Positions 9,746-23,067 of a DNA stretch of 58,954 nt are shown here, piece after piece. Under the pieces are notes generated by a model. That model worked only from the letters and a program-made list of their open reading frames with translations, was not told the DNA's origin and made no database searches. Position 1 is the stretch's first letter. Each line of letters begins with the position of its first letter. The position numbers and the translations under genes are program-made. The stretch lies in IMG/VR virus record IMGVR_UViG_3300045253_000079, positions 1 through 58,954 of that record. The stretch is one strand, 5' to 3'. The DNA is from a virus.

Positions 9746-9831
9746 GCCCGTGTGGCGAAACTGGTAGACGCAGCGGTCTTTAAAACCGACTCCTGGCAGG
9801 GAAATTGCGGGTTCGAGCCCCGCCACGGGCA
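9746..9831 (+). tRNA. Class II (Leu-type) tRNA, anticodon UUA, ochre suppressor
   Basis: The cloverleaf is complete: acceptor GCCCGTG/CACGGGC with A73; D-arm GCG/CGC around an AAACTGGTAGA loop; anticodon arm GCGGT-CTTTAAA-ACCGA (four pairs plus a G/A mismatch); a long variable arm (TCCT-GGC-AGGG); T-arm GCGGG-TTCGAGC-CCCGC. Canonical numbering puts anticodon UUA at 9780-9782, which reads the stop codon UAA and, by wobble, UAG. The long variable arm and A73 are leucine identity features. CCA is not encoded. TAA still ends about ten genes here, so suppression would be partial. Confidence 0.85.
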
Positions 9832-10134
9832 CATCACACTTGCTGCTGACATGGTAGCGAGGGCGTCCCTCTGTCCCTACAAAGTCAGGTCGTGGCCGAC
9901 TGCCGGATAGTAGCATTTCCGGGCCTTGTAGGCCAGTCCTGTACCTCAGTCCTTAAATCGGTATATGGAGGGGCTTGTTTTTTTCTGGGAAAAATCTCTG
10001 CGCTACGTAAAAGGGGGGTGCCGGCCCCTCAGCCTCGTGGTCCCTCATACCCCCCGGGTGGGGGCCTGTGCTCTTGGCTCACCGCATCGCACGCATCGTC
10101 TCCACGCGCTGCGGGGCCGTCAGCTCCGCGCGCG

Positions 10135-10151
10135 GTTATGCCGGGCATAAC
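10135..10151. promoter_or_regulatory. 17-bp palindrome, copy 1 (centre G)
   Basis: GTTATGCC-G-GGCATAAC, 66 bases before the 10218 gene. It ends 12 bases before a consensus TATAAT, so it covers the place of a -35 box, as an operator or activator site would. Confidence 0.9.
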
Positions 10152-10163
10152 TACGTGGTTCCG

Positions 10164-10169
10164 TATAAT
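10164..10169 (+). promoter_or_regulatory. Consensus -10 box before the 10218 gene
   Basis: A perfect TATAAT about 49 bases before the ATG. The -35 position falls inside palindrome copy 1, which has no TTGACA match, so the promoter may need a factor bound there or be blocked by one. Confidence 0.5.
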
Positions 10170-10217
10170 GGTCTTACTGGAGCACATCCCGTGCACAGTG
10201 AACCCTTGGAGAACATC

Positions 10218-11120
10218 ATGTCCGCCACGAAAACCCCGCTCGTTTCGTCGATTCAACCCGCGAATCCCAACGCGCCGGCATACATCGCGACTCCCGGTCA
10301 CAAGCAACGCATGACCGAACAGGCTCGGGAAGCCGCTGCAATCCTCGCAGGTGAATCTGTGCTCGGTCGCGCGTACCTTATCGGCGTCCGCTCCGCCATC
10401 GCGCACGGCCCGCTGTTGCCCGCGGAGCGCGCAGACTTCACCGGAAAATGGGAAACGAAGTCTGCAACGGACAAGACGCTGGTACCGTCTGGCGCGTGCG
10501 ATTCCTACGTGTCGCGCGTCAACACCGGACCGAAGGCAGCCAAGATCATTGGCCAGAAAAACGCGCTGGCGATCGTCGACTCGATCGAAAAGTCCCCGCC
10601 CATCGGGGTCAGGATGTATGAAGCCTGTGCGGTTGCGTTCCGCGCGATTGTCGCGGCCGCGAAGGACGACGGCGACACGACGAAGGCTAGCGCGCCGCAA
10701 GTCGTCGCGTTCACGGCCGCCGCGCGCGATGCGGTAAAAGCCCGCGTTGCCAAGCTCGCGAACGAGGACAAGACCGCGAAGACCACGCGCAAGCCTGCGA
10801 CCACAGCCAGCGCCAGCGTCACGCTCGCACCGTGCGCTCTCGCGGTCGCCGATGCCTGCCGCAAGTCGGAATCGGAGCTGCCGTTCGCACAGCAGCGCGC
10901 CAGCCTGCGCGCGTTGTCAGTGCAATTCGAATCGCAGTGCAAGCAAGGCATGCCGAAGCAAACGGCCGCCGTTGTCGCGCGCATCTCCGCGAGCTTCACG
11001 ACACTGTGCAAGGACTTCGGCGTTCTGGTACAGGCCGAAGGCAAGGACGCGGCGCCGCAGGACAAGCCGCAATCGCGCGGGCAAAAAGCGGCCGCAACGC
11101 GTCGCGCGAACCGCAAGTAG
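10218..11120 (+). CDS. Ala/Lys-rich hypothetical protein
   Basis: 300 residues starting at the ATG after TTGGAGAACATC; the longer frame reads through the palindrome and is rejected. Residues 30-160 look globular (VLGRAYLIGVRSAIAHGP, CDSYVSRVNTG). A Lys/Thr/Ala-rich linker lies at about 175-200, then a helical domain with three Cys, and a basic tail (SRGQKAAATRRANRK). A basic C-terminus fits nucleic-acid binding, but no family is recognised. It is a single-gene unit between palindrome copy 1 and a strong terminator, suggesting strong early expression. Confidence 0.75.
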   Translation: MSATKTPLVSSIQPANPNAPAYIATPGHKQRMTEQAREAAAILAGESVLGRAYLIGVRSAIAHGPLLPAERADFTGKWETKSATDKTLVPSGACDSYVSRVNTGPKAAKIIGQKNALAIVDSIEKSPPIGVRMYEACAVAFRAIVAAAKDDGDTTKASAPQVVAFTAAARDAVKARVAKLANEDKTAKTTRKPATTASASVTLAPCALAVADACRKSESELPFAQQRASLRALSVQFESQCKQGMPKQTAAVVARISASFTTLCKDFGVLVQAEGKDAAPQDKPQSRGQKAAATRRANRK

Positions 11121-11140
11121 AATCTCCCCAGTGCGAACCC

Positions 11141-11167
11141 AGCCGGCCCTTCGGGGCCGGCTTTTTT
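11141..11167 (+). terminator. Rho-independent terminator
   Basis: The stem AGCCGGCCC/GGGCCGGCT is closed by a UUCG tetraloop and followed by six T. It ends the 10218 transcript and isolates the AT-rich island downstream. Confidence 0.92.
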
Positions 11168-12091
11168 GTGCCCGCGTTTTGACCCTCACGCGTTCCCTGC
11201 CTGTTGGGCTGGCACGGTGCTTGCATGGCAGCGCACACGCGCTTTGCGCCCCTATGCAAGCCGCGTGCCAAGTGCCAATCATGACAGTTGGTTCAAGTCG
11301 CCGCGTGTGCGTTCAGTATGGTGACGACCCGTTTAACGATAATCCTGTGGCGCCAACAACTGGGCAGCAGAATGGATAGATGTTAATTAACTAGGATTGG
11401 TGGGGTTTATTGGATAGACCCCTTCGATAAACTATGACAGTTTTTCGTAGTCGCGGGGTTTAGTGGCTTTAAGTTTTACATGTGAACTGTGCAGCGCGAA
11501 GTGGCGGCAGGCTCGGCAGATAAGGATAAATCATGTTATGCCTGGCATAACTGGCGTTTCAGGTGCTAAACCCAACTTCGCAGCGATCGGCTCGGTCTAT
11601 CGGCAGTAATGGCAATCGGGTGGGTTAGGAGCCGGCAGAAGATTAAATAAAGCCCTATATATATAATACTATTACTAATAAGTGTATATATATATAGATG
11701 TTATTTAAAAAAACTGAAAACGACGCTCGTGTGAGAGTTTTAATTTTTGAATATATTGACTCACAAAACGCGTTTCGTACGCCATTCTACAGCCGAGTGC
11801 GAAATCAAGAACTCCTCATCTGTTTTTGAACTTTTTCCGCCATAGTAGATACAATGTAAATATGTTCCCCCAAACCCCCCAGATCCGCTAAACCTTCCAC
11901 ACCAATCCTAGCTTTCAATATTCCCCAATAAACCCAAATATTTACTCCGTACGACGAACACAGTTGAAACCCCTCAAACATCTGTTTGAACTCCTCCCAC
12001 AAACGATTCCTTTGCCCTTTCCCAATTAGCACCGCATATTTCCAACTTCGGCCCCCAAACCAATTATTCCTTAATAAACAACCATATACGC
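11168..12091. other. AT-rich island, possible replication origin
   Basis: From about 11380 the base composition drops sharply below the rest of the genome. It holds palindrome copy 2 and an AT-only inverted repeat (CTATATATATA at 11655-11665 with TATATATATAG at 11687-11697, 21-nt loop), and ends at a strong rightward promoter. A 32-codon frame at 11281-11379 lacks a ribosome site. An unwinding element of an origin, or a recently acquired segment, are both possible. Confidence 0.5.
11535..11551. promoter_or_regulatory. 17-bp palindrome, copy 2 (centre T)
   Basis: GTTATGCC-T-GGCATAAC inside the AT-rich island. It is the only copy without a gene start within about 130 bases downstream and the only one with T at the centre. 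Confidence 0.88.
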
Positions 12092-12098
12092 TTGACAC
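11805..12098 (-). CDS. Uncertain low-GC protein, 97 residues
   Basis: A minus-strand frame inside the AT-rich island, starting with GTG after AGAGG. The translation is aromatic and hydrophobic in places (GVNIWVYWGILKARIG) with a charged C-terminus (AEKVQKQMRSS). An internal ATG at 11989, preceded by GGAGGAG, could be the true start. Codon use is unlike the rest of the genome, so it is either foreign or not coding. Its 5' end overlaps the rightward promoter at 12092. Confidence 0.35.
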   Translation of the reverse strand: MSSVYGCLLRNNWFGGRSWKYAVLIGKGQRNRLWEEFKQMFEGFQLCSSYGVNIWVYWGILKARIGVEGLADLGGLGEHIYIVSTMAEKVQKQMRSS

Positions 12099-12120
12099 AA
12101 GCCTCTTGACATGCTATACT
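12092..12120 (+). promoter_or_regulatory. Strong sigma70-type early promoter
   Basis: TTGACA (12092-12097), a 17-base spacer, then TATACT (12115-12120): a near-perfect housekeeping promoter pointing into the early genes. A second TTGACA sits at 12106 within the spacer. Palindrome copy 3 lies about 110 bases downstream in the transcribed leader. Confidence 0.85.
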
Positions 12121-12238
12121 CCGCGCTAGAAGTGAGAGAAGTGCCTGCAAACCCACGCCATACAGCGATTCTGGAGTGGCCAACTTCGCTAACTTCTACG
12201 TCGCATGCACACAAGCCCGGCTGTGCACTCGATCTGTA

Positions 12239-12255
12239 GTTATGCCGGGCATAAC
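12239..12255. promoter_or_regulatory. 17-bp palindrome, copy 3 (centre G)
   Basis: GTTATGCC-G-GGCATAAC in the leader of the main early promoter, 33 bases before the 12289 start codon. A bound protein here could act as a roadblock rather than blocking polymerase entry. Confidence 0.9.
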
Positions 12256-12288
12256 CCTGCTGTACATTCAACCCATGGAGACACCCTC

Positions 12289-12528
12289 ATGAACACGCAT
12301 TCCGACCGCCACACGTTCCTCTGCCTCGACCCCTCGCTCAGCGTGGAGCTGGTGCAGCAGCCGCACCTCACGCGGGTGCACGACCGCTCGCCCGGTGCCG
12401 ACGCGTTCCGCAACCTGCTGGGCACGATCGCACCCGATGTGCTCGACGCGCTCTGGGAGATGCACGGTGACAACCCGTCCGAGTTCTGCCGCTGCGTCCG
12501 CATGCTGACCACGCGCCGCGTCCGCTGA
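12289..12528 (+). CDS. Hypothetical early protein, 79 residues
   Basis: Starts at the ATG behind GGAGACACCCTC. The product is acidic to neutral with a middle segment DAFRNLLGTIAPDVLDALWEMHG that looks like a helix pair, and a basic end. It is the first gene after the strong early promoter, a position often used for host-takeover proteins. No family recognised. Confidence 0.6.
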   Translation: MNTHSDRHTFLCLDPSLSVELVQQPHLTRVHDRSPGADAFRNLLGTIAPDVLDALWEMHGDNPSEFCRCVRMLTTRRVR

Positions 12529-12596
12529 CGCGGGCCGACCCCTCCATCCCCTGCGCGGTGGGGCGCGCACTACGAACCCTGCTTGGGAGTACAACC

Positions 12597-12704
12597 ATGA
12601 TCGCGCTTTACTACATCCTGTGGTACGCGTTGACGTACCTGTTGTGGGCGGTCGTCACCTATCGCATCGGCGCCCTGATCGTCGATGCGTACGACCGCAG
12701 CTGA
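12597..12704 (+). CDS. 35-residue single-span membrane microprotein
   Basis: A short gene with a good ribosome site (TGGGAGTACAACC-ATG). The product is nearly all one membrane helix rich in Tyr, Leu and Trp (ALYYILWYALTYLLWAVV) with a charged C-terminus (DAYDRS). Early phage membrane microproteins can alter host envelope or defence functions; no specific role can be assigned. Confidence 0.6.
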   Translation: MIALYYILWYALTYLLWAVVTYRIGALIVDAYDRS

Positions 12705-12775
12705 CCCACCCCCCATAGCGCATGGCATCCTGCTGTGCGCTTCACTGTGTCTGCTGCTGTTCCAACCCCACCCCG

Positions 12776-12792
12776 GTTATGCCGGGCATAAC
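12776..12792. promoter_or_regulatory. 17-bp palindrome, copy 4 (centre G)
   Basis: GTTATGCC-G-GGCATAAC in a 117-bp gap between the membrane microprotein and the 12822 gene, 29 bases before that gene's ATG. Confidence 0.9.
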
Positions 12793-12821
12793 CCCACCTC
12801 CACAGTATGGAGAATCGAACC

Positions 12822-13250
12822 ATGAACGCATCCTCGAACCTTCGTAACAACTCTGCGCGCAGGACCTATGTGCTCCTGCTGCGCATGACAGATCGCCGCG
12901 TCGCGCATGCCGTGGCGCAGCTGCACGCGCTGTACTCCCCGCGCATCCGCGTGCTGCTGTACGACAACCCGCTCACGGCCGAGTTCCACCGTGTGTACGA
13001 CGAGTGGTCGGCCCAGCTGGACGCTGTGAACGCGGCGGCGATGGCCGATCGGCACTGGCTGCGGCTGTCGCTGATGAAGGGCGCGTTGGCGCCGCCCGAG
13101 CCCGTGTACGCGCCCAAGACGGCAGCCGTGCGCGCAGCGGCGCTGGACGCTGGCTGCACGGTGCGTGAGCTGCCGCTGTTCCGCTTGGCGGACGACTACA
13201 TCGTCGACACGCAGCTGCTCGCAGCGTTCGGGGGAGCGTGCTGTGCGTAG
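12822..13250 (+). CDS. Hypothetical early protein, 142 residues
   Basis: The start is at the second in-frame ATG (after GGAGAATCGAACC). An alpha/beta character is suggested by YVLLLRMTDRRVAHAVAQLHALY, then IRVLLYDN, then helices, ending FGGACCA with paired Cys. No family recognised. Its end overlaps the next gene by 8 bases. Confidence 0.65.
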   Translation: MNASSNLRNNSARRTYVLLLRMTDRRVAHAVAQLHALYSPRIRVLLYDNPLTAEFHRVYDEWSAQLDAVNAAAMADRHWLRLSLMKGALAPPEPVYAPKTAAVRAAALDAGCTVRELPLFRLADDYIVDTQLLAAFGGACCA

Positions 13251-13548
13251 GCGGCTGCTGCTCGACGGCACCGCTGCATCCGCGCTCGACTCGGCCACGC
13301 GCGACGTGCAGGAGGTGTTCGCGCGTCAGTACCTGCTCGTGTGCCTGCTTGTGCTGGCACATGGGCTCGACCCCGCCACCGCTTGGCAGGAGAGCACAGA
13401 GGGTTTGCGCGTGGCGGACAGCAGCAACCATCGGCCCGACTACGACGCGGAGGTCGACGTGGGTTTGAACGGCGGCAGGGCGACGCAGGGATGGTGGTAT
13501 TCGTTCGAGGTTATGCCGGGCATAACCGAGGAGAGTGATCATGGCTAG
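13243..13548 (+). CDS. Hypothetical early protein, 101 residues
   Basis: A GTG start preceded by GGAGCGTGCT and overlapping the upstream stop. A hydrophobic helix (EVFARQYLLVCLLVLAHGLDPATAW, about 24-48) dominates. The last residues (FEVMPGITEESDHG) are encoded by palindrome copy 5, so the operator is embedded in the 3' end of the gene. Function unknown. Confidence 0.6.
   Translation: MRRRLLLDGTAASALDSATRDVQEVFARQYLLVCLLVLAHGLDPATAWQESTEGLRVADSSNHRPDYDAEVDVGLNGGRATQGWWYSFEVMPGITEESDHG
13510..13526. promoter_or_regulatory. 17-bp palindrome, copy 5 (centre G)
   Basis: GTTATGCC-G-GGCATAAC overlapping the 3' end of the 13243 gene, followed at once by GAGGAG and an ATG at 13541 that opens only a 22-codon frame. 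The next substantial gene starts at 13649. Confidence 0.9.
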
Positions 13549-13609
13549 GATCAACATGACGCCGAGGGTCGACAGCACGTACGGTGCACCGACGCACCAC
13601 AGTAGGTGA
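13541..13609 (+). CDS. Possible 22-residue leader peptide
   Basis: This ATG has a good ribosome site (GAGGAGAGTGATC) directly after palindrome copy 5 and opens a 22-codon frame ending 39 bases before the 13649 gene. It could be a leader peptide or a non-functional remnant. The sequence alone does not decide. Confidence 0.3.
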   Translation: MARINMTPRVDSTYGAPTHHSR

Positions 13610-13648
13610 TATGCTGCACCACAAACTTCCAACCATGAGGGGAAAACC

Positions 13649-14083
13649 ATGTACTCACACCTGACCCAAAGAAAGTCCAAGCTGTGGCTGTTCGACCTGA
13701 CCGGCCGTTACTGGTTCGTCGAGGTCGAGTCCGGACGCGCGGTGATGATCGAAAACGCGGACAACGACTCGGACTACCAGATCCCGCCCGGCCGCATCCA
13801 GCTGTTCGCTACGGACGGCAACGACAACGTGGAGCCGCTGTCGGCGCTGCTGCACGACCAGCCGGTGCGGATCACCTCGCATGGGTACATCATCGTGCAC
13901 GACGAGCGCGGTGCCGACTACCTGCTGCGCCTGCTCAAGCCGGTCGACCCGGCGCGGCTGGAGTGGACGTGGCAGCGATGGCTGACCACGTTCCTGATGA
14001 TGGGCGTGCTCGTGTTCGGGTTCGTGCTCGCGACCCAGCGCGCGTTCGAGATCGCGGTCGGCGCGTCGCTGCCGGTGCATTGA
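13649..14083 (+). CDS. Membrane-anchored early protein
   Basis: 144 residues with a soluble beta-rich N-terminal part (KLWLFDLTGRYWFVEVESG...) and one membrane helix at about 111-129 (WLTTFLMMGVLVFGFVLAT) near the C-terminus, so the bulk should face one side of the inner membrane as a tail-anchored protein. The start follows AGGGGAAAACC. No family recognised; a role in superinfection control or host envelope change is possible but unproven. Confidence 0.68.
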   Translation: MYSHLTQRKSKLWLFDLTGRYWFVEVESGRAVMIENADNDSDYQIPPGRIQLFATDGNDNVEPLSALLHDQPVRITSHGYIIVHDERGADYLLRLLKPVDPARLEWTWQRWLTTFLMMGVLVFGFVLATQRAFEIAVGASLPVH

Positions 14084-14084
14084 C

Positions 14085-14456
14085 GTGTCGGTCGCCCATG
14101 AAGTGTCGTGGCTGGAGCTGCGCGTGATGGCGGCGCAGCTGGGCATGCGCGAGGTGTTGCAGGTGTTCGCCAGCACGGCCAAGCCGACGGGTATCTGGGT
14201 CGACAGCAGGGCTGTCGTGGGCTGCTGCATGGGGTTGGTCGACTGGCAGGCGCGCACGTGGGAGCGCATCGAGGACATGTACACGCTCTCGGACTACGTG
14301 CTCAAGGCGCGCGTGCTGCGGTTCGACGAGATACCCTCGTCGATGCAGACGCAGATGTGCGACCCGTGCGGCAGGTATCTGAACGTGCATCCGGGTTGGG
14401 ATCATGCGCGTGCGAAGCTGCTGGAGTTCTCGCGCGCAGGGAGGTTGCCATGGTAA
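14085..14456 (+). CDS. Hypothetical protein with CxxC
   Basis: 123 residues from a GTG start one base after the previous stop. A helical first half (WLELRVMAAQLGMREVLQVF) is followed by MCDPCGRYLNVHPGWDHAR, a CxxC plus His that could bind metal. It stops with TAA inside the next gene's start region. Function unknown. Confidence 0.62.
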   Translation: MSVAHEVSWLELRVMAAQLGMREVLQVFASTAKPTGIWVDSRAVVGCCMGLVDWQARTWERIEDMYTLSDYVLKARVLRFDEIPSSMQTQMCDPCGRYLNVHPGWDHARAKLLEFSRAGRLPW

Positions 14457-14869
14457 AGCATGACAGTGGCGCGCTCCTGCTGGCGCGCACGCAGGAGAAC
14501 GGTGGCGCGGGCGAGTTCCTCGACGAGCTCACCCTCGCCGTGTTCCTCGCCCAAGCTGACCCGCGCTCGCGCGTGCACGTCGCGATGCGGGCCATCGACC
14601 ATCACGTCGTGTACTGCATCCGGCACTTTGCGATCGTGAACGGTTTCCTGCAGCAGGGCAGCGGTACGCCCTACGAGACCAACGCGCTGGCCGACTACAA
14701 GGCGTGCCGGCCGGATGGGATGCTGGTGTTGCGTCGGCACGAGCAGGCGCTGGAGTTCCTGCGGAGCCACAACAAGCTGAAAGTGTTGTGCGTGTACCCG
14801 CTGGACGAAGGTCCGCGGTGCGTCCGCTGCACGCCGCCGGTTATGCCCGGCATAACGAAGGGAGTTTGA
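14450..14869 (+). CDS. Tandem Cys-rich paralog A
   Basis: 139 residues, GGGAGG before ATG. It shares with the next three genes an N-terminal LDELTLAVFLAQA motif, a YCIRHF Cys-His motif in the middle, a GMLVLRR strand shared with B, and a C-terminal CVRC pair, suggesting a small zinc-binding fold. Its last residues (PVMPGITKGV) are encoded by palindrome copy 6. The function is unknown; the fourfold tandem duplication points to a diversifying early gene family. Confidence 0.65.
   Translation: MVKHDSGALLLARTQENGGAGEFLDELTLAVFLAQADPRSRVHVAMRAIDHHVVYCIRHFAIVNGFLQQGSGTPYETNALADYKACRPDGMLVLRRHEQALEFLRSHNKLKVLCVYPLDEGPRCVRCTPPVMPGITKGV
14840..14856. promoter_or_regulatory. 17-bp palindrome, copy 6 (centre C)
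   Basis: GTTATGCC-C-GGCATAAC overlapping the 3' end of paralog A and lying 16 bases before the ATG of paralog B. Confidence 0.9.
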
Positions 14870-14872
14870 ACC

Positions 14873-15316
14873 ATGATGCAGAAGAAAGGCAGGCTGCCCA
14901 CCCTCGACGACCTGACGCTGGCCGTGCTCGCCACGCAGGCGCTGCCGACGCACATCGTGGTGTTCTCGCGGCCTGAGAGCACGACGGTGCGCAGGCTGTG
15001 CACGAAGCACTTCATGCAGCGGATGCAGGGTTACTACAACACGCCGCCGGGCGTGCTTACGCTACGTCGAACGTGCGACATCATGGCCAGCAAAGGCTGG
15101 TACGTGCACAACATCGTGCCCGGCTGTGCAGATTCATGCTGCCCCTGCCAGAAAGCTGCATACGGCAAGCGCGGCATGCGGCTGAGGCTGGCGAAGAACG
15201 AGCGGGACGCGGTGCGGTTCGCGAGTCTGCCGACCGGCAAGAACGCTGTGCTGTCTAAGTATGGCAGGAGCGCCGGCTGGGTTACGTCCACGTACCGCAC
15301 GCCGAGGACATACTGA
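14873..15316 (+). CDS. Tandem Cys-rich paralog B
   Basis: 147 residues; its ribosome site GGGAG directly follows palindrome copy 6. The shared family features are LDDLTLAVLATQA near the N-terminus, LCTKHFM in the middle, GVLTLRR, and a Cys cluster (GCADSCCPCQK, about 85-95). Unlike its relatives it has about 50 extra basic residues after the Cys cluster. Its stop overlaps the ATG of paralog C. Confidence 0.65.
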   Translation: MMQKKGRLPTLDDLTLAVLATQALPTHIVVFSRPESTTVRRLCTKHFMQRMQGYYNTPPGVLTLRRTCDIMASKGWYVHNIVPGCADSCCPCQKAAYGKRGMRLRLAKNERDAVRFASLPTGKNAVLSKYGRSAGWVTSTYRTPRTY

Positions 15317-15645
15317 TGAACGACCTCGAACTCGCTGTTGCGGTGGCGCAAGCCGAGCCATCGGACATGGTGGTGTACCGGCGCGGGAAGGATCCATACC
15401 CGGGATTCGATCCGCTCGACCGCCACTGCTTCGCCCACTTCATGGTGCAGGTGGTGAGCGGAGCACCGCTCAATGGTGACCCCGTGCAGCACGTACTGTG
15501 GCGCGTGCACAAGTGCGACTGGAGGGTCACAAGCATCTGCAGGAACGCGGCGTACGCCTGCACGCTGTGCCACGAGAAGATCATCCAGCAGAAGGATCCG
15601 CTGTGGGAGGTAACGGCCTCATGGCAAAGCCGGCTCAAGGGCTAG
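15316..15645 (+). CDS. Tandem Cys-rich paralog C
   Basis: 109 residues whose ATG shares an A with the preceding TGA. It begins at once with the family motif NDLELAVAVAQAEP, has HCFAHFM in the middle and CTLCHEK toward the end, preceded by KCDWRVTSICRNAAYA. The pattern of conserved Cys/His with otherwise divergent sequence suggests a shared metal-binding fold. Confidence 0.65.
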   Translation: MNDLELAVAVAQAEPSDMVVYRRGKDPYPGFDPLDRHCFAHFMVQVVSGAPLNGDPVQHVLWRVHKCDWRVTSICRNAAYACTLCHEKIIQQKDPLWEVTASWQSRLKG

Positions 15646-15929
15646 ACCCGCTCACGTTTGCGGTGGAGTGCGCGCAGCGTGGCGGTGCGGAGAAGTGCGT
15701 GTTCCTGTTCCCGGCAGGGCTGCGGGTTAACGTCCTTGGAACAGAGGCGCTGGCCAAGCCAACGTGGTACTGCCTTCGCCACATCCCCGGCGTAATGCTG
15801 GGGGCTGGTCTGCGCTATGGCCCGGGCGCAGTAGCAGCGCATCTGCTGGACAACCAGACGCAGCTGTTCCCTGTTCTGGAGGTTGACTACAAAGACGGGT
15901 TGTATGTACGTTGTGCAAGCTGCCGGTAG
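15621..15929 (+). CDS. Tandem Cys-rich paralog D
   Basis: 102 residues, overlapping paralog C by 25 bases. It has LDPLTFAVECAQR, then WYCLRHIPGVM matching the YC-RH motif of paralog A, and ends VLEVDYKDGLYVRCASCR, closely parallel to the end of paralog A. The TAG stop is followed directly by palindrome copy 7. Confidence 0.62.
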   Translation: MAKPAQGLDPLTFAVECAQRGGAEKCVFLFPAGLRVNVLGTEALAKPTWYCLRHIPGVMLGAGLRYGPGAVAAHLLDNQTQLFPVLEVDYKDGLYVRCASCR

Positions 15930-15945
15930 TTATGCCCGGCATAAC
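15929..15945. promoter_or_regulatory. 17-bp palindrome, copy 7 (centre C)
   Basis: GTTATGCC-C-GGCATAAC starting on the last base of the paralog D stop codon, 23 bases before the ATG at 15969. Confidence 0.9.
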
Positions 15946-15968
15946 TTTCAAACCATGAGGAGTGTGTG

Positions 15969-16730
15969 ATGGATACTTACACCGATGCACAGATGCGCCT
16001 GATCGACGAGCATCGCGACATCAACGTCGACTACGAGAGCTGGAGCTCGTACATCACCGACGCGTTCAAGGAACTGCTGACCAAGTTCGGCATCCCGGTG
16101 AGCGACGTGTACTGGTCCGGGTTCTGGAGCCAAGGCGACGGCGCGAGTTTCGACACCAACGGTGCGTTCACCATCGCGGATCTGGTGGATGCGTGGGAGC
16201 TGCGCAAGTTCGAGGCCGTGCACTGCTCGGACAGCGAGGGTGCACGAGAGCTTGCGTGGTTCGTGGAGCCGCCCAAGGACTACCCCCTGCTCAAGCTGCT
16301 GCAGGATCAAGCGCAGCACTACGCACTCAAGTACGCCGCGTATCTGATGGTTAAGGAAACGCGCGACGTGATCGAGCAATGCGAGTTCAGGGTCAACGCG
16401 CGCAGCAACCACTACTCGCACAGCGGTACGATGTTCCTCGACTGGGAGGACCGTAACACGTGGCGAGAGGACGACAACTCAGGGCTGGACGAGGATGTGC
16501 ACAACAGCCTGTGCGATCTGCTGGCCGACGAGGAAAAGCCCCTGCAAGACTGGCTCCGTGAACTCGCCGACGCGCTGTACCGTGAGCTCGAATCCGAACA
16601 CGAATACCAGACCAGCGACGAGCAGGTTTGGGAGAGTATCGTCGCCAACGACATGCACCTCGATCTTGAGGACGATGACGCTGACGAAGATGAAAGTGCG
16701 ACACAGCCTGCCATCCCGGCAGCAGCCTAA
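15969..16730 (+). CDS. Conserved acidic phage protein with SGFWSQGDGA motif
   Basis: 253 residues beginning at the ATG after GGAGTGTGTG. It contains VYWSGFWSQGDGASF (about 48-62), a motif I associate with a widespread uncharacterised phage protein family, and a very acidic C-terminus (LEDDDADEDES, about 233-243). The acidic tail could mimic nucleic acid. Function unknown. It follows palindrome copy 7. Confidence 0.7.
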   Translation: MDTYTDAQMRLIDEHRDINVDYESWSSYITDAFKELLTKFGIPVSDVYWSGFWSQGDGASFDTNGAFTIADLVDAWELRKFEAVHCSDSEGARELAWFVEPPKDYPLLKLLQDQAQHYALKYAAYLMVKETRDVIEQCEFRVNARSNHYSHSGTMFLDWEDRNTWREDDNSGLDEDVHNSLCDLLADEEKPLQDWLRELADALYRELESEHEYQTSDEQVWESIVANDMHLDLEDDDADEDESATQPAIPAAA

Positions 16731-16750
16731 CCAACTCAGGAGTTAAAACC

Positions 16751-17617
16751 ATGCCGTCTCCCAACCTTGCCGCGAATGTTCCCGCGGTCGAATCGGTGCT
16801 CAGGACCTTTCGGTTCAAGACCTACACCGACCTCGCAACCACCCGCACCATCCTCGGGGAGCAGATCCGCCTGTCGATGCAGCACCCCGAGGCGTACCAG
16901 ATCCCGATCGACCAGCTGTGCCCGGAGCTCTCCAGCGGGCAGGTGCCCGCGCAGTTCGTGCATCCGTGGAACATCGCGGCGGCACTGATGAACGTGTGCG
17001 TGTCGGGCCTGCGGTTCGGTGGCGACAACCTCGCGCCGCAGGAGGACCTGCAGGTGTACGTGGGCGAGTGGACACGCCTGCAGGACTGCACGTTCCCCAG
17101 CGCGGTGCTGGCGAAGCACGAGGACCCGAAGCCCAAGCTGCCGGTCGCCACGGCCAGCGAGGTGGTGCAAAGCACGCTTGCCGGGGATGACAGTTCGACC
17201 GGCGGCGAGCCCCTCCAACCCGAGTTGCTCGGCGCCGACGGCCTGCCGAATCCGTCGATCCACGCCGAGCGCACGGGCCAGACCGGGCGTCCGCAGAAGT
17301 CGCCGTTCACCAAGCAGCTGCGCGAGCGGTCGAAGGTGGGCGCCGAGCCGTTCTGGATGGCGCACTTGCGCGTCTCATTGAAGCGGATCTTCACCCGCTC
17401 GCCGGCAGCGGCGGTCGACCCGAGCAGCGACGGCGTGGGTCCGGTGCAGACTTACATGGCACTGGTGCAGCTGCTGCAGATCGCGCTGGCCGATGTGCCG
17501 GGCCACGTCACCGCTGCGCAGTTGAAGCATTACCTCGCCACGATCGACGCGCAGGTGGCGGGGATCCAAGACGCGAAGGCGGCCAACCAGCTGCGTCGCG
17601 CGTTGTTCTCCAAGTAA
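16751..17617 (+). CDS. Hypothetical early protein, 288 residues
   Basis: Starts after AGGAGTTAAAACC. A helical N-terminal domain (1-125) is followed by a low-complexity linker (about 130-200) and a C-terminal domain with LVQLLQIALADVPGHVTAAQLKHYLATID, probably helical. Two Cys occur in the first domain. No family recognised. It shares a transcript with the 15969 and 17654 genes. Confidence 0.65.
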   Translation: MPSPNLAANVPAVESVLRTFRFKTYTDLATTRTILGEQIRLSMQHPEAYQIPIDQLCPELSSGQVPAQFVHPWNIAAALMNVCVSGLRFGGDNLAPQEDLQVYVGEWTRLQDCTFPSAVLAKHEDPKPKLPVATASEVVQSTLAGDDSSTGGEPLQPELLGADGLPNPSIHAERTGQTGRPQKSPFTKQLRERSKVGAEPFWMAHLRVSLKRIFTRSPAAAVDPSSDGVGPVQTYMALVQLLQIALADVPGHVTAAQLKHYLATIDAQVAGIQDAKAANQLRRALFSK

Positions 17618-17653
17618 CTCCACGGGCATGGACGCCCTCTCGTAAGGAAAACC

Positions 17654-17851
17654 ATGAACACGACCGCATCAGCGGCCGACTTCCAGAGGCTGAACCCGCA
17701 GCTGCAGGGCTCGATCATCGAGCTCCTGCAGGTGTGCCAGCGCAACTGCATGACCTGCCGTTGCGAGCTGGTCGGACGCGACTTCATCATCGTCGTGGGC
17801 CGAGGATTCAGTTCCCCGAAGTACTGGCTGGACATGTACGAACGAGCGTAG
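17654..17851 (+). CDS. Small Cys-rich hypothetical protein
   Basis: 65 residues after AAGGAAAACC. It has CQRNCMTCRCE (about 28-38), four Cys suited to metal binding, then DFIIVVGRGF and a polar end. Last gene before palindrome copy 8. Function unknown. Confidence 0.6.
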   Translation: MNTTASAADFQRLNPQLQGSIIELLQVCQRNCMTCRCELVGRDFIIVVGRGFSSPKYWLDMYERA

Positions 17852-17853
17852 TC

Positions 17854-17874
17854 TTGACATAGCCATACTATGTA
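17854..17874 (+). promoter_or_regulatory. Possible promoter upstream of the MoxR module
   Basis: A perfect TTGACA at 17854-17859 is followed by CATACTATGTA, but no -10 hexamer falls at the usual 16-18 base spacing. It may be a weak or factor-dependent promoter. The gap to the next gene is 103 bases and holds palindrome copy 8. Confidence 0.35.
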
Positions 17875-17922
17875 CACATTGGGCAGCCTTGCCCGATGTA
17901 ACCCCATGATCTACCCCGCCCG

Positions 17923-17939
17923 GTTATGCCGGGCATAAC
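17923..17939. promoter_or_regulatory. 17-bp palindrome, copy 8 (centre G)
   Basis: GTTATGCC-G-GGCATAAC, 15 bases before the ATG of the MoxR-like gene and about 65 bases downstream of a TTGACA. Confidence 0.9.
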
Positions 17940-17954
17940 CAAGGATTACAAACC

Positions 17955-19046
17955 ATGAGCAGGATCAATGCCATTCCCTCGACCGAACTCGCCACCCTGA
18001 TCCGGGTGTTCTTCCTCGCCAAGCGCACGATGTACGCCGTCGGCAAGCCGGGCATCGCCAAGACCGCGATGGTCCGCAAGGGTTGCGAGGATGTCGGCAA
18101 GGCGCTCGGCAAGCCCTTCGTGGTGCGCGAGCTGCATCTGGCCAGCATGTCCGAGGTGGACATCCGCGGCTACCTGATCCCCGACGGGGACGACAGCAAG
18201 TTCACCAAGCCCGAGTTCTGGCGGGTGGTGGAGGCCAACGAGTACGGGTGCCTGTTCCTCGACGAGTTCCCGCAGGCGCCGCACGAAGTGCAGAAAGCCG
18301 TCGCGCCGCTGATCCTTGAGCGCCGCATCGGTGAGTGGTATCTGCCTGACGGCTGGATGGTGGTGTGTGCCGGCAACAGCATCGAGGACAACAGCGGTGC
18401 GAACTCGCTGCTGGCGCACGTCCTCAACCGCATGAGCCGCATCGAGGTGTGTGCGCCGGACGTGGACGAGTGGATCACGTGGGCTGCGCAGAACAACCTG
18501 CCGCCCGAGCTGATCGCGATCGCGAAGCTGCGCCCGGACATCGTGTTCAATTCCGACATCCCGTCGGAGCCCGACACGCCCTACTGCACCCCGCGTTCTC
18601 TCCACGCGTTGGGCGACATCGCCAACGCCTACACGGGTGGTCTGGTCGAGATGGTGGCGTGCCCGACGGGCATATCCATCCTCAACGGCACGATCGGGCA
18701 GGGGCCGGCGGTCGAGGTCGCTGCGATGGTGCGCACCTCCATGCGCCTGCCGTCGTATCAGGACGTGATGGCCGACCCGGAGAAGTGCCCCGTGCCGACC
18801 AAGCAGGACGAGGCGTACGCGATGGCGATGCTGGTGGCCGTGCGCGGCGATGCGAAGCGTGACGCGGGCAAGCCGGTGCAGTACCTCGGCCGGTTCCCGC
18901 CGAACATCGCGCTGGCCGGGATCATGCCGCTGATCCGCAGGGACGGTGAGTTCCTCAAGACCAAGGAGATCGCGCGGTGGGTGATCGCGAACAAGGAGAT
19001 CACCAACAAGTTCCGCCACTACCTGACGCTGGCGAAGGGGAAGTGA
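17955..19046 (+). CDS. MoxR-type AAA+ ATPase
   Basis: 363 residues. Walker A is GKPGIAKT (30-37), Walker B LFLDEF (about 99-104), and a sensor-type CAGN lies near 136, with an extended C-terminal lid. MoxR ATPases act as chaperones that activate or insert metal into partner proteins, usually VWA-domain proteins. The very next gene encodes such a partner, one base after this stop, and a DUF3150-like gene follows. The module is found in several phages with no settled role; host protein remodelling or defence interference are possible. Confidence 0.88.
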   Translation: MSRINAIPSTELATLIRVFFLAKRTMYAVGKPGIAKTAMVRKGCEDVGKALGKPFVVRELHLASMSEVDIRGYLIPDGDDSKFTKPEFWRVVEANEYGCLFLDEFPQAPHEVQKAVAPLILERRIGEWYLPDGWMVVCAGNSIEDNSGANSLLAHVLNRMSRIEVCAPDVDEWITWAAQNNLPPELIAIAKLRPDIVFNSDIPSEPDTPYCTPRSLHALGDIANAYTGGLVEMVACPTGISILNGTIGQGPAVEVAAMVRTSMRLPSYQDVMADPEKCPVPTKQDEAYAMAMLVAVRGDAKRDAGKPVQYLGRFPPNIALAGIMPLIRRDGEFLKTKEIARWVIANKEITNKFRHYLTLAKGK

Positions 19047-19047
19047 C

Positions 19048-20283
19048 ATGAAAACCGTGATCCTCAACGAAGCCTACATGCCTGAGGACGTGTGGGTCCC
19101 CAACCCGCTGGGCGTCCAGCGGTTCGAGGAGGGCGTGCAGGCCGTGCTGCTGTCGCAGCCGTTCTTCGCGTCGCTCCTGATGAAGATGAACCATCAGGCC
19201 AAGCCGTGCGGCACCGCGGGCGTCAACGGGCGCGACCTGATGTACGACCCGGAGTTTTTCGCCAAGATGGACATGGACGAGGCGATGTTCGTGGTGTGCC
19301 ACGAGGTGCTCCACTGTGCGTGGGACCAGCTGCACCGCGCGCAGGCGTATCACACGGCGAACGTCGGCCCGGATGGGCAGGAGTACGACCATCAGCTGTT
19401 CAACATGGCGATGGACTACCCCGTGAACGCATCGCTGGTGGAGTCGTGCATCGGCAAGGTGCCCAAGTTGGTGCAGTGCTGCCTCGACCAGAAGCGGTTC
19501 CCGTCGAGCATGACGCCCGAGGAGGTGTACTGCGAGCTGAAAAAGGACCAGAAGAAACAGGGCGGCAAGCTGGGCAACGGACCCCCGGGACCGGGCGAGC
19601 CGGGCGGGCATCAGGTGCTCGACCAGCATGGTGAGCCGTCCACGGACCCGCAGTCGATCACGGCAGCGGACGTGCAGCAGGCAGCGAACCTGTGCGAGGC
19701 GCAGCGCGGCACCCTGCCGGCGGGCATCGACCGCCTGCTGGGCCAGATCAAGCGCCCGCCTGTGAGCCCGTGGCGGCGTTTGCGGCAAGCGGTGGTCACC
19801 TCCCTCAAGGGATACGACTCGACGTCGTGGCGGCGCCTGCACCGCACCCTGATCGTGCGTCGGATCGGAGTCCCCGGCCGGATCGCGCACGGGTCCGGGA
19901 CGATCGGGATCGTGGTGGATACGTCGGGCTCGATCGGCGAGGCGATGCTGAACCTGTTCGGCTCGCACATGGCGGCGATCATCGACGACGCGCGTCCGGA
20001 GAAAGTGTTCCTGTACTGGACCGACGCGGCGATGCACAGGCGGGACGAGGTGAAGTCCTCGACCGCACTGCGCTCGCTGCTGACCAAGCCGGTGCCCGGT
20101 GGTGGCGGCACCGACATGCCCGTCGGCGTGCGCTGCGCGGAGGAGGACAAGTGCGACTGCGTGGTGGTGCTCACGGACGGCTACACCCCGTTCTGTGGCT
20201 CCAAGAAAAAGCTGGTGTGGGCGATCACCTCGCACAACGTCAGCGCCCCGAAGGGTATGGGAGAAACCATCCACATCACCTGA
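19048..20283 (+). CDS. VWA-like metallopeptidase, MoxR partner
   Basis: 411 residues. The N-terminal part has a zincin motif CHEVLHCAWDQ with His85, Glu86 and His89. A Lys/Gly/Pro-rich linker lies near 170-200, and a C-terminal VWA fold has the MIDAS motif DTSGSIGE (about 291-298) and GGGGTDMPVG. This layout matches DUF2201/VWA-like metallopeptidases paired with MoxR ATPases. It begins two bases after the ATPase gene, with GGGGAAG as ribosome site, so they are co-translated. Palindrome copy 9 overlaps its immediate 3' flank. Confidence 0.86.
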   Translation: MKTVILNEAYMPEDVWVPNPLGVQRFEEGVQAVLLSQPFFASLLMKMNHQAKPCGTAGVNGRDLMYDPEFFAKMDMDEAMFVVCHEVLHCAWDQLHRAQAYHTANVGPDGQEYDHQLFNMAMDYPVNASLVESCIGKVPKLVQCCLDQKRFPSSMTPEEVYCELKKDQKKQGGKLGNGPPGPGEPGGHQVLDQHGEPSTDPQSITAADVQQAANLCEAQRGTLPAGIDRLLGQIKRPPVSPWRRLRQAVVTSLKGYDSTSWRRLHRTLIVRRIGVPGRIAHGSGTIGIVVDTSGSIGEAMLNLFGSHMAAIIDDARPEKVFLYWTDAAMHRRDEVKSSTALRSLLTKPVPGGGGTDMPVGVRCAEEDKCDCVVVLTDGYTPFCGSKKKLVWAITSHNVSAPKGMGETIHIT

Positions 20284-20300
20284 GTTATGCCCGGCATAAC
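20284..20300. promoter_or_regulatory. 17-bp palindrome, copy 9 (centre C)
   Basis: GTTATGCC-C-GGCATAAC immediately after the VWA gene stop. Its last base begins the terminator stem, so an operator and a terminator are fused here. Confidence 0.9.
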
Positions 20301-20325
20301 CCGGCTCCCTCGGAGCCGGGTCTTT
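20300..20325 (+). terminator. Rho-independent terminator after the VWA gene
   Basis: The stem CCCGGCTCC/GGAGCCGGG with a CTC loop is followed by TCTTT. The weak U-tract suggests partial termination, lowering expression of the DUF3150-like gene relative to the ATPase and VWA genes. Confidence 0.8.
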
Positions 20326-20355
20326 CAACCATGATCTAAACTATTGGAGAATCAC

Positions 20356-21240
20356 ATGGACCTCGCAAACCTGAACGACCGCGCCTCCCTCGTCTACCTG
20401 CGCATCGGCGCGTGGTCGGCACGCAAGCTCGACCGCACGGCCACCAAACACGTGACCGACGACAACGGCGCTACCGCGGACGCCGCGCGCGTGAACAAGC
20501 ACCTGCTGGCCAACGCCGACAAGCAGCTCAAGGACATCCAGAAGATCGGGTCCGAAGCGCGCCGCTACGTCGAGTCGTGCACGCTGCCGTGGGACGACGC
20601 CGGCAACCGGCTGCTGCCGAACGAAGCCACGCTCGAAACCGTGACCCAGCTCACCGGGTACGAGCACCAGTACAACGACGCGGTGGCCGAGTTCATCGAC
20701 CTGTACCCGGACCTGCGCGAGCAGGCGAAGCTGGCGCTGGGCACGCTGGCCAACGACGACGACTACCCGCCGGCCGAGGCGATCCGCGACAAGTTCTCCT
20801 ACCGGCTGAGCTTCAACCCGGTGCCGGTGAAGTTCAACGACCTGCGCACGGGGCTATCCCCGGAGCAGGCCAGCGCGATCAGCCAGCACTTCGAGGCGAA
20901 CGCCAAGCGGCAGGTGCGTGACGCGCTGACCACGGCGTGGAAGCGCCTGCAGGAAAACCTGATGCGCTACAGCGACCGCCTCAAGATCAAGGACGACGGG
21001 TCGGGCAAGATGGAGGTGTTCCGCGACTCGATGGTTGAGGGCATGCGCGACACGTGCAGCATGCTCAAGGCGATGAACGTGTTCGACGACGACGATCTGG
21101 AGCGCATCCGGATCGAGGTCGAGCGCGAGATCTGCCAGTTCGACGCCGACCAGCTGCGCGGGAACCAGCTGCTGGCCATGAGCGTGAAGTCGAAGGCCGA
21201 CGACATCCTCGCCAAGATGCGCGAACATCTGGGCCTGTGA
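20356..21240 (+). CDS. DUF3150-like protein of the MoxR/VWA module
   Basis: 294 residues from the ATG after TTGGAGAATCAC. The N-terminus (ASLVYLRIGAWSARKLDRTATKHV, then ADAARVNKHLL) resembles DUF3150 proteins, which accompany MoxR and VWA genes in phages. The rest is mostly helical and charged, with many Asp and Glu. It is probably the third component of the module; the biochemical role is unknown. Confidence 0.7.
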   Translation: MDLANLNDRASLVYLRIGAWSARKLDRTATKHVTDDNGATADAARVNKHLLANADKQLKDIQKIGSEARRYVESCTLPWDDAGNRLLPNEATLETVTQLTGYEHQYNDAVAEFIDLYPDLREQAKLALGTLANDDDYPPAEAIRDKFSYRLSFNPVPVKFNDLRTGLSPEQASAISQHFEANAKRQVRDALTTAWKRLQENLMRYSDRLKIKDDGSGKMEVFRDSMVEGMRDTCSMLKAMNVFDDDDLERIRIEVEREICQFDADQLRGNQLLAMSVKSKADDILAKMREHLGL

Positions 21241-21830
21241 TGCTGCAGTCCTTCATCGACTCGGTGAGGGAACAGGTGAGGCTTCGGCCTCACCTGTCGG
21301 CGTTCGTCCCCTTGATCCATAAACTGCCGGAACACATGGAGTGGAAGTCCAAGCAGACGGCGGTGGCGTTGTGCGCGGACTCCGTAGTGCTGTGCCACCG
21401 GGGGCTGCCGTACCCGGCTGCGCTGGAGACGCTGCGCACGGCGATGGCGCGCGACCGCTTGAAGATGCGGGCGGTGCGGCTGATGAACCAGCAGCAGGCG
21501 CTTCAAGCGTTCGGCCCGGTAGGCGGCCTGATCATGCAGGCACTCGATGACCCGGAGGATGACCCGTACCTGCACGCGCTGCTGATGGCCGTGGAGAAAC
21601 CTTACGGGGAGCGTGAGCCGGTGTTCGGTCGGCACACCTACACAGAAAGTTATGTGTCCATGCCGGTAGGGATGAAAAGCGAGTGGCAGGTGGGGCTTAT
21701 CGAGCGCATCTCGCTTGACCGTGCCAAACTACTTTACAATGCGGCCACGAACGGGCAACATCTGAAACCTGAGTTCTGTGTGGGAGTGAACAATGAAATC
21801 TTTGAAGAAGATCAACAAGCGATACGGTAA
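21240..21830 (+). CDS. Hypothetical protein, 196 residues
   Basis: The ATG shares an A with the preceding TGA, indicating coupled translation. The product is mainly helical (QTAVALCADSVVLCHRGLPYPAALETLRTAMARDRLKMRAVRLMNQQQALQ) and its last 13 codons overlap the next gene. No family recognised; co-translation suggests a link to the DUF3150-like protein. Confidence 0.62.
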   Translation: MLQSFIDSVREQVRLRPHLSAFVPLIHKLPEHMEWKSKQTAVALCADSVVLCHRGLPYPAALETLRTAMARDRLKMRAVRLMNQQQALQAFGPVGGLIMQALDDPEDDPYLHALLMAVEKPYGEREPVFGRHTYTESYVSMPVGMKSEWQVGLIERISLDRAKLLYNAATNGQHLKPEFCVGVNNEIFEEDQQAIR

Positions 21831-22203
21831 GCTCTCGGTGCTGTCCGAGGACACGGTGGACGGGCGCCGCACGGCGCTCGTCCAGTGTTCGTGCGGTCAG
21901 CAGAAGCGGGTGATGGTCGACGCCCTCACAGCCGGCCGCACGCGGTCGTGCGGCCGGTACGAGTGCAAGTACGGCAAGGCCAAGCGCGTGAAGGGTTACA
22001 CCCCGACCGGCTCGCGCACGCTGCCGCTGGGAAAGATCCAAGAGGCATGGGATCTGACCACGCGGCTGGTGGACCGCAAGACCACGCCCGAAGCGTCCAA
22101 GCGCCTGCGGGTGCCCGTCCACAGGGTCTATGCGGTGATCCGCAGCGTGCGTCGGGCGGGCGGCATCGACCAGTACATGAAGGCAGTAGGTGCACCCGGT
22201 TGA
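21793..22203 (+). CDS. Zinc-ribbon/HTH DNA-binding protein
   Basis: 136 residues with good GGGAG spacing. Residues 8-55 follow the pattern seen beside homing-endonuclease and AP2-like DNA binders (YGKLSVL, VQCSCGQQKRV, TRSCGRYEC), a four-Cys zinc ribbon. The C-terminal part (TPEASKRLRVPVHRVYAVIRSVRR) reads like a helix-turn-helix. It is the best candidate regulator within the palindrome-bearing region. A truncated homing endonuclease is the alternative. Confidence 0.65.
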   Translation: MKSLKKINKRYGKLSVLSEDTVDGRRTALVQCSCGQQKRVMVDALTAGRTRSCGRYECKYGKAKRVKGYTPTGSRTLPLGKIQEAWDLTTRLVDRKTTPEASKRLRVPVHRVYAVIRSVRRAGGIDQYMKAVGAPG

Positions 22204-22247
22204 CCCCGGGTGCATCATGACAGTTCATTGATCAGGAGAGCCGTGCC

Positions 22248-22478
22248 ATGGCACCCAAGCCCCGCAACTACAAGCGCGAAGATGCGATGTACGAGGACAA
22301 CCCCGTGCAGGTGAAAGAGCGCGAGAACCGGAACACGGCGCGTCGACAGGCCGAGAAGAAAGGTCAGGTGCACAAGGGCGACGGGCTGGAGGTCGACCAC
22401 AAGGACGGCAACCCGCTGCACAACAGCCCGAAGAATCGGCAGATCCTCACGCGTCACGCCAACAGGAAGAAAGCCTGA
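22248..22478 (+). CDS. Small HNH-type protein
   Basis: 76 basic residues ending with an HNH-like signature (LEVDHKDGNPLHNSPKNRQIL, about 48-68). Phages often carry these short basic HNH proteins near packaging or replication genes. Nuclease activity is plausible, but the domain is minimal. Preceded by GGAGAGCCGTGCC. Its stop overlaps the start of the next gene. Confidence 0.7.
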   Translation: MAPKPRNYKREDAMYEDNPVQVKERENRNTARRQAEKKGQVHKGDGLEVDHKDGNPLHNSPKNRQILTRHANRKKA

Positions 22479-22663
22479 TGCCATTCAACTGCCCGTGTCC
22501 AAAGTGTGGCAGCGGGCGGTGGGCGCACAGGGATGCTTCGACACCCCAGTACTACGCACAGGCTGTGTGGTGCCTTGACTGCAACTTCACGATGCCTGTT
22601 GACGACTGGCCCAAGTCCGAGACGTTTGTACCACCACGAACTGTTTACCCGAGGAAAAAATGA
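22478..22663 (+). CDS. Zinc-ribbon microprotein
   Basis: 61 residues with two Cys pairs, CPCPKCG near the N-terminus and CLDC near residue 35, typical of a zinc ribbon that could bind nucleic acid or a protein partner. Overlaps both neighbours. Role unknown. Confidence 0.62.
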   Translation: MPFNCPCPKCGSGRWAHRDASTPQYYAQAVWCLDCNFTMPVDDWPKSETFVPPRTVYPRKK

Positions 22664-22857
22664 ACCCGATCATGAAGTACTTCGCGTACCAACACGCGTA
22701 CCAACACCTGCCAGACAAGTTGCAGGGAGTGAGCAAGCCGTTCTTCGATCTGGCGTGGACGATGGATGCAGCCATGCCGGACAGCCCCGAGAAGTCGGCA
22801 GGCCTGCGCAAGCTGCTCGAAGCGAAGGACTGCTTTGTTCGGGCATCGCTGCCGTGA
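22660..22857 (+). CDS. Acb2/Tad1 hairpin-like protein, possible anti-defence sponge
   Basis: 65 residues: PIMKYFAYQH..HLPDKLQGVSKPFFDLAWTM then PDSPEKSAGLRKLLEAKDCFVRA. The pattern of a helix, a Pro-Asp-Ser-x-Glu-Lys-Ser turn and an LRKLLEAKD helix is that of the small phage proteins grouped with the Acb2/Tad1 hairpin, some of which sequester cyclic nucleotide signals of CBASS or Thoeris defence. Binding cannot be judged from sequence. The start overlaps the zinc-ribbon stop. Confidence 0.68.
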   Translation: MNPIMKYFAYQHAYQHLPDKLQGVSKPFFDLAWTMDAAMPDSPEKSAGLRKLLEAKDCFVRASLP

Positions 22858-23051
22858 GCCGCGAAGCGTGGCAGCAGCGCGTTGTCGACGAGCAGGCGGA
22901 GCTCGACGAAAAGATCCTGCTGCTCGGGAACTTTTTCGGCACACCAACCTTCGCTGGGCTGAGTCCGCTGGAACGAGCGCGCATGTGCAACCAATACGAA
23001 GTGATGCAGCGTTACAGCGAGATCCTCGGAGACCGCATCAACGCATTCTAG
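22854..23051 (+). CDS. Partner of the Acb2/Tad1-like protein
   Basis: 65 residues from a GTG overlapping the previous stop (GTGA). The sequence WQQRVVDEQAELDEKILLLG, then FFGTPTFAGLSPLERARM, then MQRYSEILGDRI matches a short helical protein widely found directly after the 22660-type gene in unrelated phages, sometimes fused to it. A functional pairing is likely. The TAG stop is joined to palindrome copy 10. Confidence 0.65.
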   Translation: MSREAWQQRVVDEQAELDEKILLLGNFFGTPTFAGLSPLERARMCNQYEVMQRYSEILGDRINAF

Positions 23052-23067
23052 TTATGCCGGGCATAAC
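23051..23067. promoter_or_regulatory. 17-bp palindrome, copy 10 (centre G)
   Basis: GTTATGCC-G-GGCATAAC beginning on the last base of the preceding stop codon, 56 bases before the next ATG. It is the last copy; the replication genes to the right have none by eye. Confidence 0.9.

Follow-up and report, generated by a model that had tools for sequence, protein, structure and literature searches.

Phage-specific palindromes at conserved early-region places form a probable operator system in an apparently undescribed phage group

The viral genome in IMG/VR record IMGVR_UViG_3300045253_000079 (58,954 nucleotides, analysed over its full length and called the window here) carries ten copies of a 17-bp palindrome, GTTATGCC-N-GGCATAAC, which belong to a real, conserved operator system in an apparently undescribed phage group. 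The system is family-wide: the sequence of the palindrome varies from phage to phage and its places are conserved. We consider it probable that the ten palindromes are operators through which one phage-encoded dimeric regulator controls the early region. This regulator, most likely encoded by the first early gene, would silence the early genes by blocking. Of the new points, the strongest are that operators have been exchanged at fixed positions and that the first gene emerges as a candidate.

Results

Ten identical sites in the early half of a complete genome

All ten copies have perfect arms and lie exactly where a sequence-only reading of this DNA had placed them, with G at the centre of the + strand in six, C in three and T in one. 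The base that flanks each half-site on the outside is a purine in 18 of the 20 half-sites, which in effect extends the operator to R-GTTATGCC-N-GGCATAAC-Y. The whole-genome search with mismatches that the earlier reading had proposed gave no further match at one to three mismatches (0.10 expected from dinucleotide shuffles), and a blind scan of the whole window for arms of 6-8 bases revealed no other palindrome family of comparable size.

The sites are all confined to the early half of the phage genome. Because the ends of the window are an identical repeat of 127 bp, the window is the whole phage genome, of 58,827 bp, and the absence of the 17-mer from the late region is therefore real; the restriction to early genes, first noticed by eye, holds for the complete genome. 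For nine sites the distances from the end of the site to the next start codon were 66, 33, 29, 14, 16, 23, 15, 55 and 56 nt, which bears out the earlier statement that nine copies lie 14-66 nt before a start, the 14-nt case being an open reading frame (ORF) of 22 codons. A gene start lies 15-66 nt downstream of eight of the ten sites; one precedes the 22-codon ORF, and one (11535) is followed by no gene for 737 nt. Four of the ten share bases with the 3' end of the gene before them.

Related phages carry other palindromes at equivalent places

A DNA similarity search of the region against phage records gave no match, and no annotated phage shares its DNA. The relatives described here are IMG/VR contigs that were found through their major capsid, MoxR and DUF3150 proteins and read whole; a single-sequence MoxR search returned no relatives, whereas a search by alignment recovered them. 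The exact 17-mer itself had 4 isolated single matches in IMG/VR, which is about chance.

When the related phages were examined, G001, G005, G022, G023, G026 and G027 were each found to have another palindrome at equivalent places. In G001 it is TTAAAACGTTTTAA, the 12-bp core of which is present in 9 copies and in 2 more with one change; in G022 it is TTAAAAC-N-RTTTTAA (11 places), and in G023 GTTACCGA-N-TCGGTAAC (10 places). GTTACCG-N2-CGGTAAC occurs at 6 places in G026 and 8 in G027. Variants of GTTAAAAC-C-GTTTTAAC occupy the 3 places that the G005 fragment covers, namely before MoxR, after the VWA gene and before the next equivalent unit; G022 and G005 have the form TTAAAAC-C-RTTTTAA in common. 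The half-site begins with GTTA in the window, G005, G023, G026 and G027, and the spacing of the half-sites shifts by one base between close relatives (G001 versus G005, G026 versus G023).

The window, G001, G022 and G023 have a common layout: site A, the first early gene, a terminator and site B with no gene behind it, followed by several sites before genes that lack orthologues, a site at MoxR, a site between VWA and DUF3150 and a last site. The first of these, the MoxR and VWA/DUF3150 sites and a later site are also present in G026 and G027, and site A lies 66-97 nt 5' of the first early gene in all six of these genomes. The sequence-only reading, which took the window sites to define an early-gene regulon, was largely right in this, but it missed a family-wide system with phage-specific sequences.

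Repeated palindromes were also found in more distant relatives: ATTTACC-N-GGTAAAT in G029, ATTAACC-N2-GGTTAAT (13 copies) in G032, and CTTAG-N6-CTAAG within a longer GGACA...TGTCC repeat in G033 and G034. The repeats are strongest at 12 loci, and at 8 of these the DUF3150 gene is preceded by a copy at a distance of 34-77 bp. No such palindrome set was present in Rollin, G016, G017, G020, G010 or plasmid pSTEC648_2, nor, by whole-contig scan, in G028, G031, G036 or G037; smaller loci from G036 and G037 had three-copy GTGTTC repeats.

In G001 (TTAAATCG), G022 (a GGTTTT centre) and G023 (single changes), sites A and B depart a little from the sequence of the remaining sites of that genome, and these deviations are perhaps affinity classes. 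A separate case is Rhizobium phage RHph_TM3_14A, which has about 40 copies of the 18-bp palindrome GTTACC-N6-GGTAAC over 48 kb; unlike the early-only sets these are in both early and late regions, and its first early gene lies between two copies. In G030, GGAAATGGAGATTTCC is repeated 1-3 nt 5' of start codons (26222, 27346, 28294, 30302 and 30940 in the orientation read); it is a start-associated sequence containing the Shine-Dalgarno sequence and recalls the SAS of Cluster K mycobacteriophages.

The first early gene varies with the operator

The first early gene (10218..11120, + strand, 300 amino acids) is represented by an orthologue in the corresponding position of each of the six genomes examined. 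It is flanked by sites A and B in the window, G001, G022 and G023, and is monocistronic, with its own intrinsic terminator behind it (11141..11162, + strand). Within operator classes the normalised similarity of the first-gene proteins was 0.44, 0.67, 0.37 and 0.34; between classes it was 0.02-0.12, giving a between/within ratio of 0.16, compared with 0.45-0.78 for 15 other orthologues, virion and replication proteins included. In other proteins the window resembles G001 nearly as closely as G001 resembles G022, whereas for the first gene similarity drops from 0.44 to 0.10. Because its similarity follows operator class far more steeply, the first early gene stands out as the likely binder, and we regard it as the best candidate for the operator-binding protein. 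Homology of the window protein with the G001/G022 pair is sound (HHalign E 2e-7); with the G023 group it is suggestive only.

The product had no Pfam, PHROG or PDB match, and no homologues were found in phage records. The PDB profile search yielded only weak matches to CusF, which were judged to be chance. The sequence-only reading had seen no evident repressor and had pointed to the protein encoded at 21793; on the first count the covariation with operator class now makes 10218-11120 a good candidate, and on the second, G001, G022, G023 and G005 contain no orthologue of the 21793 protein, which looks HNH-related.

Promoters and start signals around the sites

A sigma-70 promoter with its -35 starting 50-70 bp upstream was found at 8 of 45 sites, mostly with an extended -10, compared with a mean of 0.09 and a maximum of 2 at random positions in 500 trials; at these 8 sites the -35 lay at -54 to -65 from the site. 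At these promoter-bearing sites the palindrome spans roughly +20 to +40 of the transcript; the remaining sites, which have no promoter, are located in gaps or where the upstream gene ends. A bound protein that stops RNA polymerase would fit either placement. A Shine-Dalgarno sequence directly follows or overlaps several sites (G023 5371, G001 4381), so that a site-activated promoter starting downstream is impossible there. At site A the nearest -10-like hexamer lies 12 nt downstream in the window (TATAAT) and about 24 nt away in G023, and with such varying spacing the sign of autoregulation is not readable.

DNA sites rather than RNA hairpins

As RNA, the site could form a hairpin in the window alone, with a 7-bp stem and a 3-nt loop (-5.6 kcal/mol), but the same element in G001, G005 and G022 has a folding energy of 0 to about -2 kcal/mol. 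Changed arm bases were counted at 16 sites in relatives, excluding the position that flanks the centre: 12 break the pair, 2 give G-T and 2 are compensated. Changes that mostly break pairs are the behaviour of dimer half-sites. Since the arm changes are mostly uncompensated and the hairpins of the relatives are near 0 kcal/mol, the sites act as DNA and not as RNA, as the earlier argument for a dimeric DNA-binding protein had it.

The early region of the window

The early genes occupy the stretch between about 10 and 36 kb on the + strand, and the virion genes are mostly on the - strand. Operator A (10135..10151) is 66 nt 5' of the first early gene, and operator B (11535..11551), with equivalents in G001, G022 and G023, lies behind that gene. 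The next operator (12239..12255, 33 nt before gene 12289) has upstream of it a sigma-70 promoter on the + strand (12092..12120, TTGACA-17-TATACT, extended -10). Those that follow are at 12776..12792 (29 nt before gene 12822), at 13510..13526 (within the terminal part of gene 13243-13548, 14 nt before the 22-codon ORF at 13541 and 122 nt before the next real gene, 13649), at 14840..14856 (16 nt before gene 14873) and at 15929..15945 (23 nt before gene 15969). The operator at 17923..17939, with equivalents in G001, G005, G022, G023, G026 and G027, is 15 nt before the gene for a MoxR-type AAA ATPase (AAA_5; N4 gp24-like; 17955..19046, + strand), which is followed by that for a DUF2201 metallopeptidase/VWA-like protein (19048..20283, + strand). 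Directly after the VWA stop codon comes the operator at 20284..20300, 55 nt before a DUF3150-like gene with a weak Pfam match (20356..21240, + strand); its equivalents are in the same six relatives and in the majority of the distant relatives that have a repeated palindrome. The last operator (23051..23067) is 56 nt before gene 23124 and has an equivalent last site in G001, G022, G023 and G005.

Between site B and the next gene the window has an AT-rich non-coding stretch (11640-12120, TATATATAATACTATTACTAATAAG...), a possible replication origin; G001, G023 and G026 have comparable stretches at the equivalent location. A tRNA-like gene with a long variable arm and anticodon TTA (9746-9832, + strand) was found by ARAGORN, which makes it an ochre (UAA) suppressor type, and Rfam confirms a tRNA. 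Several phage genes use TAA stops, and the gene has no counterpart in G001, G002, G005, G022 or G023. The 152-amino-acid protein encoded at 23701-24159 weakly resembles proteasome subunits in Pfam (E 0.005, below cut-off).

Discussion

In the explanation that we favour as the probable one, a dimeric regulator would bind just downstream of early promoters and in short intergenic gaps, and once bound would block transcription start or the passage of RNA polymerase, so that the early genes are silenced; at operator A it would also control its own gene. Three parts of this are inferred: binding of the sites by the first-gene protein, repression through blocking, and a use in immunity or early-gene shut-off. 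Several observations weigh against this explanation. Most window sites have no clear promoter. No helix-turn-helix (HTH) or other DNA-binding domain was recognised in the first-gene product, and its 2 AlphaFold models are poor (predicted local distance difference test, pLDDT, 53 and 59) and gave no PDB or BFVD fold match. The covariation test covers three operator classes in six genomes, and the first genes of the distant G032, G033 and the Rhizobium phage are not detectably homologous. In addition, no phage-integrase, resolvase, ParA or ParB family was found above cut-off in the window, so that lysogenic use there is only hypothetical.

The sites could instead be operators for another protein, a host factor or some other early phage protein, with the first gene merely fast-evolving. 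The lack of a recognised DNA-binding domain in the first-gene product would suit this, and a host regulator tuned to degenerate sites is conceivable. However, the exact 17-mer had 27 matches in 84,980 species genomes, always single and isolated; it marks no visible host regulon in the genomes searched, a point that the sequence-only reading had put forward for checking. The operator moreover changes between close relatives and the first gene changes with it, and the 21793 protein is, as described above, without orthologues in the relatives, and we consider this explanation unlikely. Less probable again, and in our view improbable, are activator or processivity sites that turn the early genes on. 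In several relatives operator A is found around -32 to -45 relative to a promoter-like -10 whose -35 is poor, a placement known from some activators, but at most other sites the Shine-Dalgarno sequence and start codon follow within 10-25 nt, which leaves no room for an activated promoter, and good promoters lie upstream of the site.

Hairpins in RNA leaders (processing or translation control), or hairpin promoters of an N4-like virion RNA polymerase, would be in keeping with the folding of the window site and with a MoxR protein that has N4-like relatives; yet the hairpins of G001, G005 and G022 have almost no stability and the arm changes are uncompensated, a transcript starting downstream would lack its Shine-Dalgarno sequence where this follows or overlaps the palindrome, and no polymerase was recognised in the 2584-amino-acid giant protein. 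N4 virion RNA polymerase promoters are stable small hairpins directly upstream of the transcription start and go with a virion polymerase gene; the unstable hairpins of G001, G005 and G022 and the adjoining Shine-Dalgarno sequences do not match this, and we regard this reading as very improbable. Just as improbable are partition (parS-like) or gene-boundary recombination sites: the palindromes are repeated at gene junctions and a distant plasmid cousin has both phage genes and ParB, but the ParB-family protein that goes with ParB/parS or KorB operators is missing (no ParB_N match in the window or 10 relatives), ParA has no match either, and the sites lie only near early-gene start codons, beside promoters. 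A terminator reading of the sites was considered and put aside.

Returning to a blocking regulator, its possible use depends on the lifestyle of the phages. The sequence-only reading had contrasted the window with temperate phages. This stands in that no integrase family was found above cut-off in the window; it does not hold for relatives, since G032, with 13 sites in the same layout, has a tyrosine integrase beside an excisionase-like gene. The 60.5-kb plasmid pSTEC648_2 (CP061838.1), whose DUF927 primase is related to that of the window, also has phage lysis genes, ParB and a giant protein, and is apparently a phage-plasmid cousin of the replication module. On account of the G032 integrase and this cousin, an immunity role is plausible for the lineage; for the window phage, shut-off of early genes or exclusion of relatives is equally possible. 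Prophage relatives were not found in bacterial genomes through the MoxR alignment (two short patterns only).

Multi-copy repressor sites that lie between genes in the early region are known as the conserved inverted repeats of phiC31, and the window system, palindromic and confined to the early region, is most like these. The stoperators of R4-type Streptomyces phages are likewise multi-copy intergenic repressor sites (PMC10276819). The phages concerned are nevertheless different, Pfam, PHROG and PDB link the candidate to no such repressor, and what is striking here is that the operators have diversified while their places stayed fixed. In Cluster A mycobacteriophages (L5, TipsytheTRex) each stoperator is an asymmetric 13-mer to which a monomer binds and whose orientation follows transcription (PMC6550527, PMC9283540). 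The likeness to stoperators drawn in the sequence-only reading survives in the many copies of a short early-only site in promoters, short gaps and gene junctions, and in a motif that shifts between relatives with the repressor, a role that we ascribe to the regulator here by inference. The window site, however, is a perfect palindrome with no orientation, and for that reason its system does not belong to the Cluster A system. The Cluster A immunity repressor bears an HTH and halts transcription when bound; the candidate is unrelated to known families and, from poor models, has no fold match.

Cluster K mycobacteriophages have extended start-associated sequences (ESAS), inverted repeats at the starts of non-structural genes with a subcluster-specific consensus, which are not RNA hairpins; the repeats are imperfect, 17 bp long and separated by a spacer of 4-13 bp, they adjoin a Shine-Dalgarno-like 13-mer, and their function was left open (PMC3203893). 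The SAS of the same phages is an asymmetric 13-mer with AGGAG, 3-7 bp before start codons (PMC3203893). As with ESAS, the palindrome consensus changes between related phages, but the sites described here are compact palindromes of 14-17 bp without the 13-mer and with no Shine-Dalgarno sequence inside, 14-66 nt before starts, and the window system is not a member of the Cluster K SAS system. A repeated element ahead of several phage genes is also shared with prophage SPbeta, in which the 15-bp SPBRE is bound by the master repressor MrpR, a protein with a tyrosine-recombinase fold that long escaped identification as the SPBRE repressor (PMC10516654). The candidate gave no tyrosine-recombinase match in Pfam or, from its poor models, by fold.

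More tentatively, and with somewhat less confidence than we have in the blocking regulator itself, we suggest that the first gene may represent an undescribed family of helical regulators in a widespread environmental phage lineage, whose specificity has been swapped repeatedly while the operator positions stayed fixed. If this is true, operator swaps at fixed positions are what would be expected from selection to escape the immunity repressor of other phages. The relatives would then offer natural operator-protein pairs that belong to one recognisable protein family and have three or more specificities, useful for studying the joint change of a phage regulator and its operators when ten places in a genome are affected at once. 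The finding suggests that immunity-like control may exist even in phages with no recognisable integrase or repressor, and a route to such regulators is to seek the gene whose divergence follows the operator.

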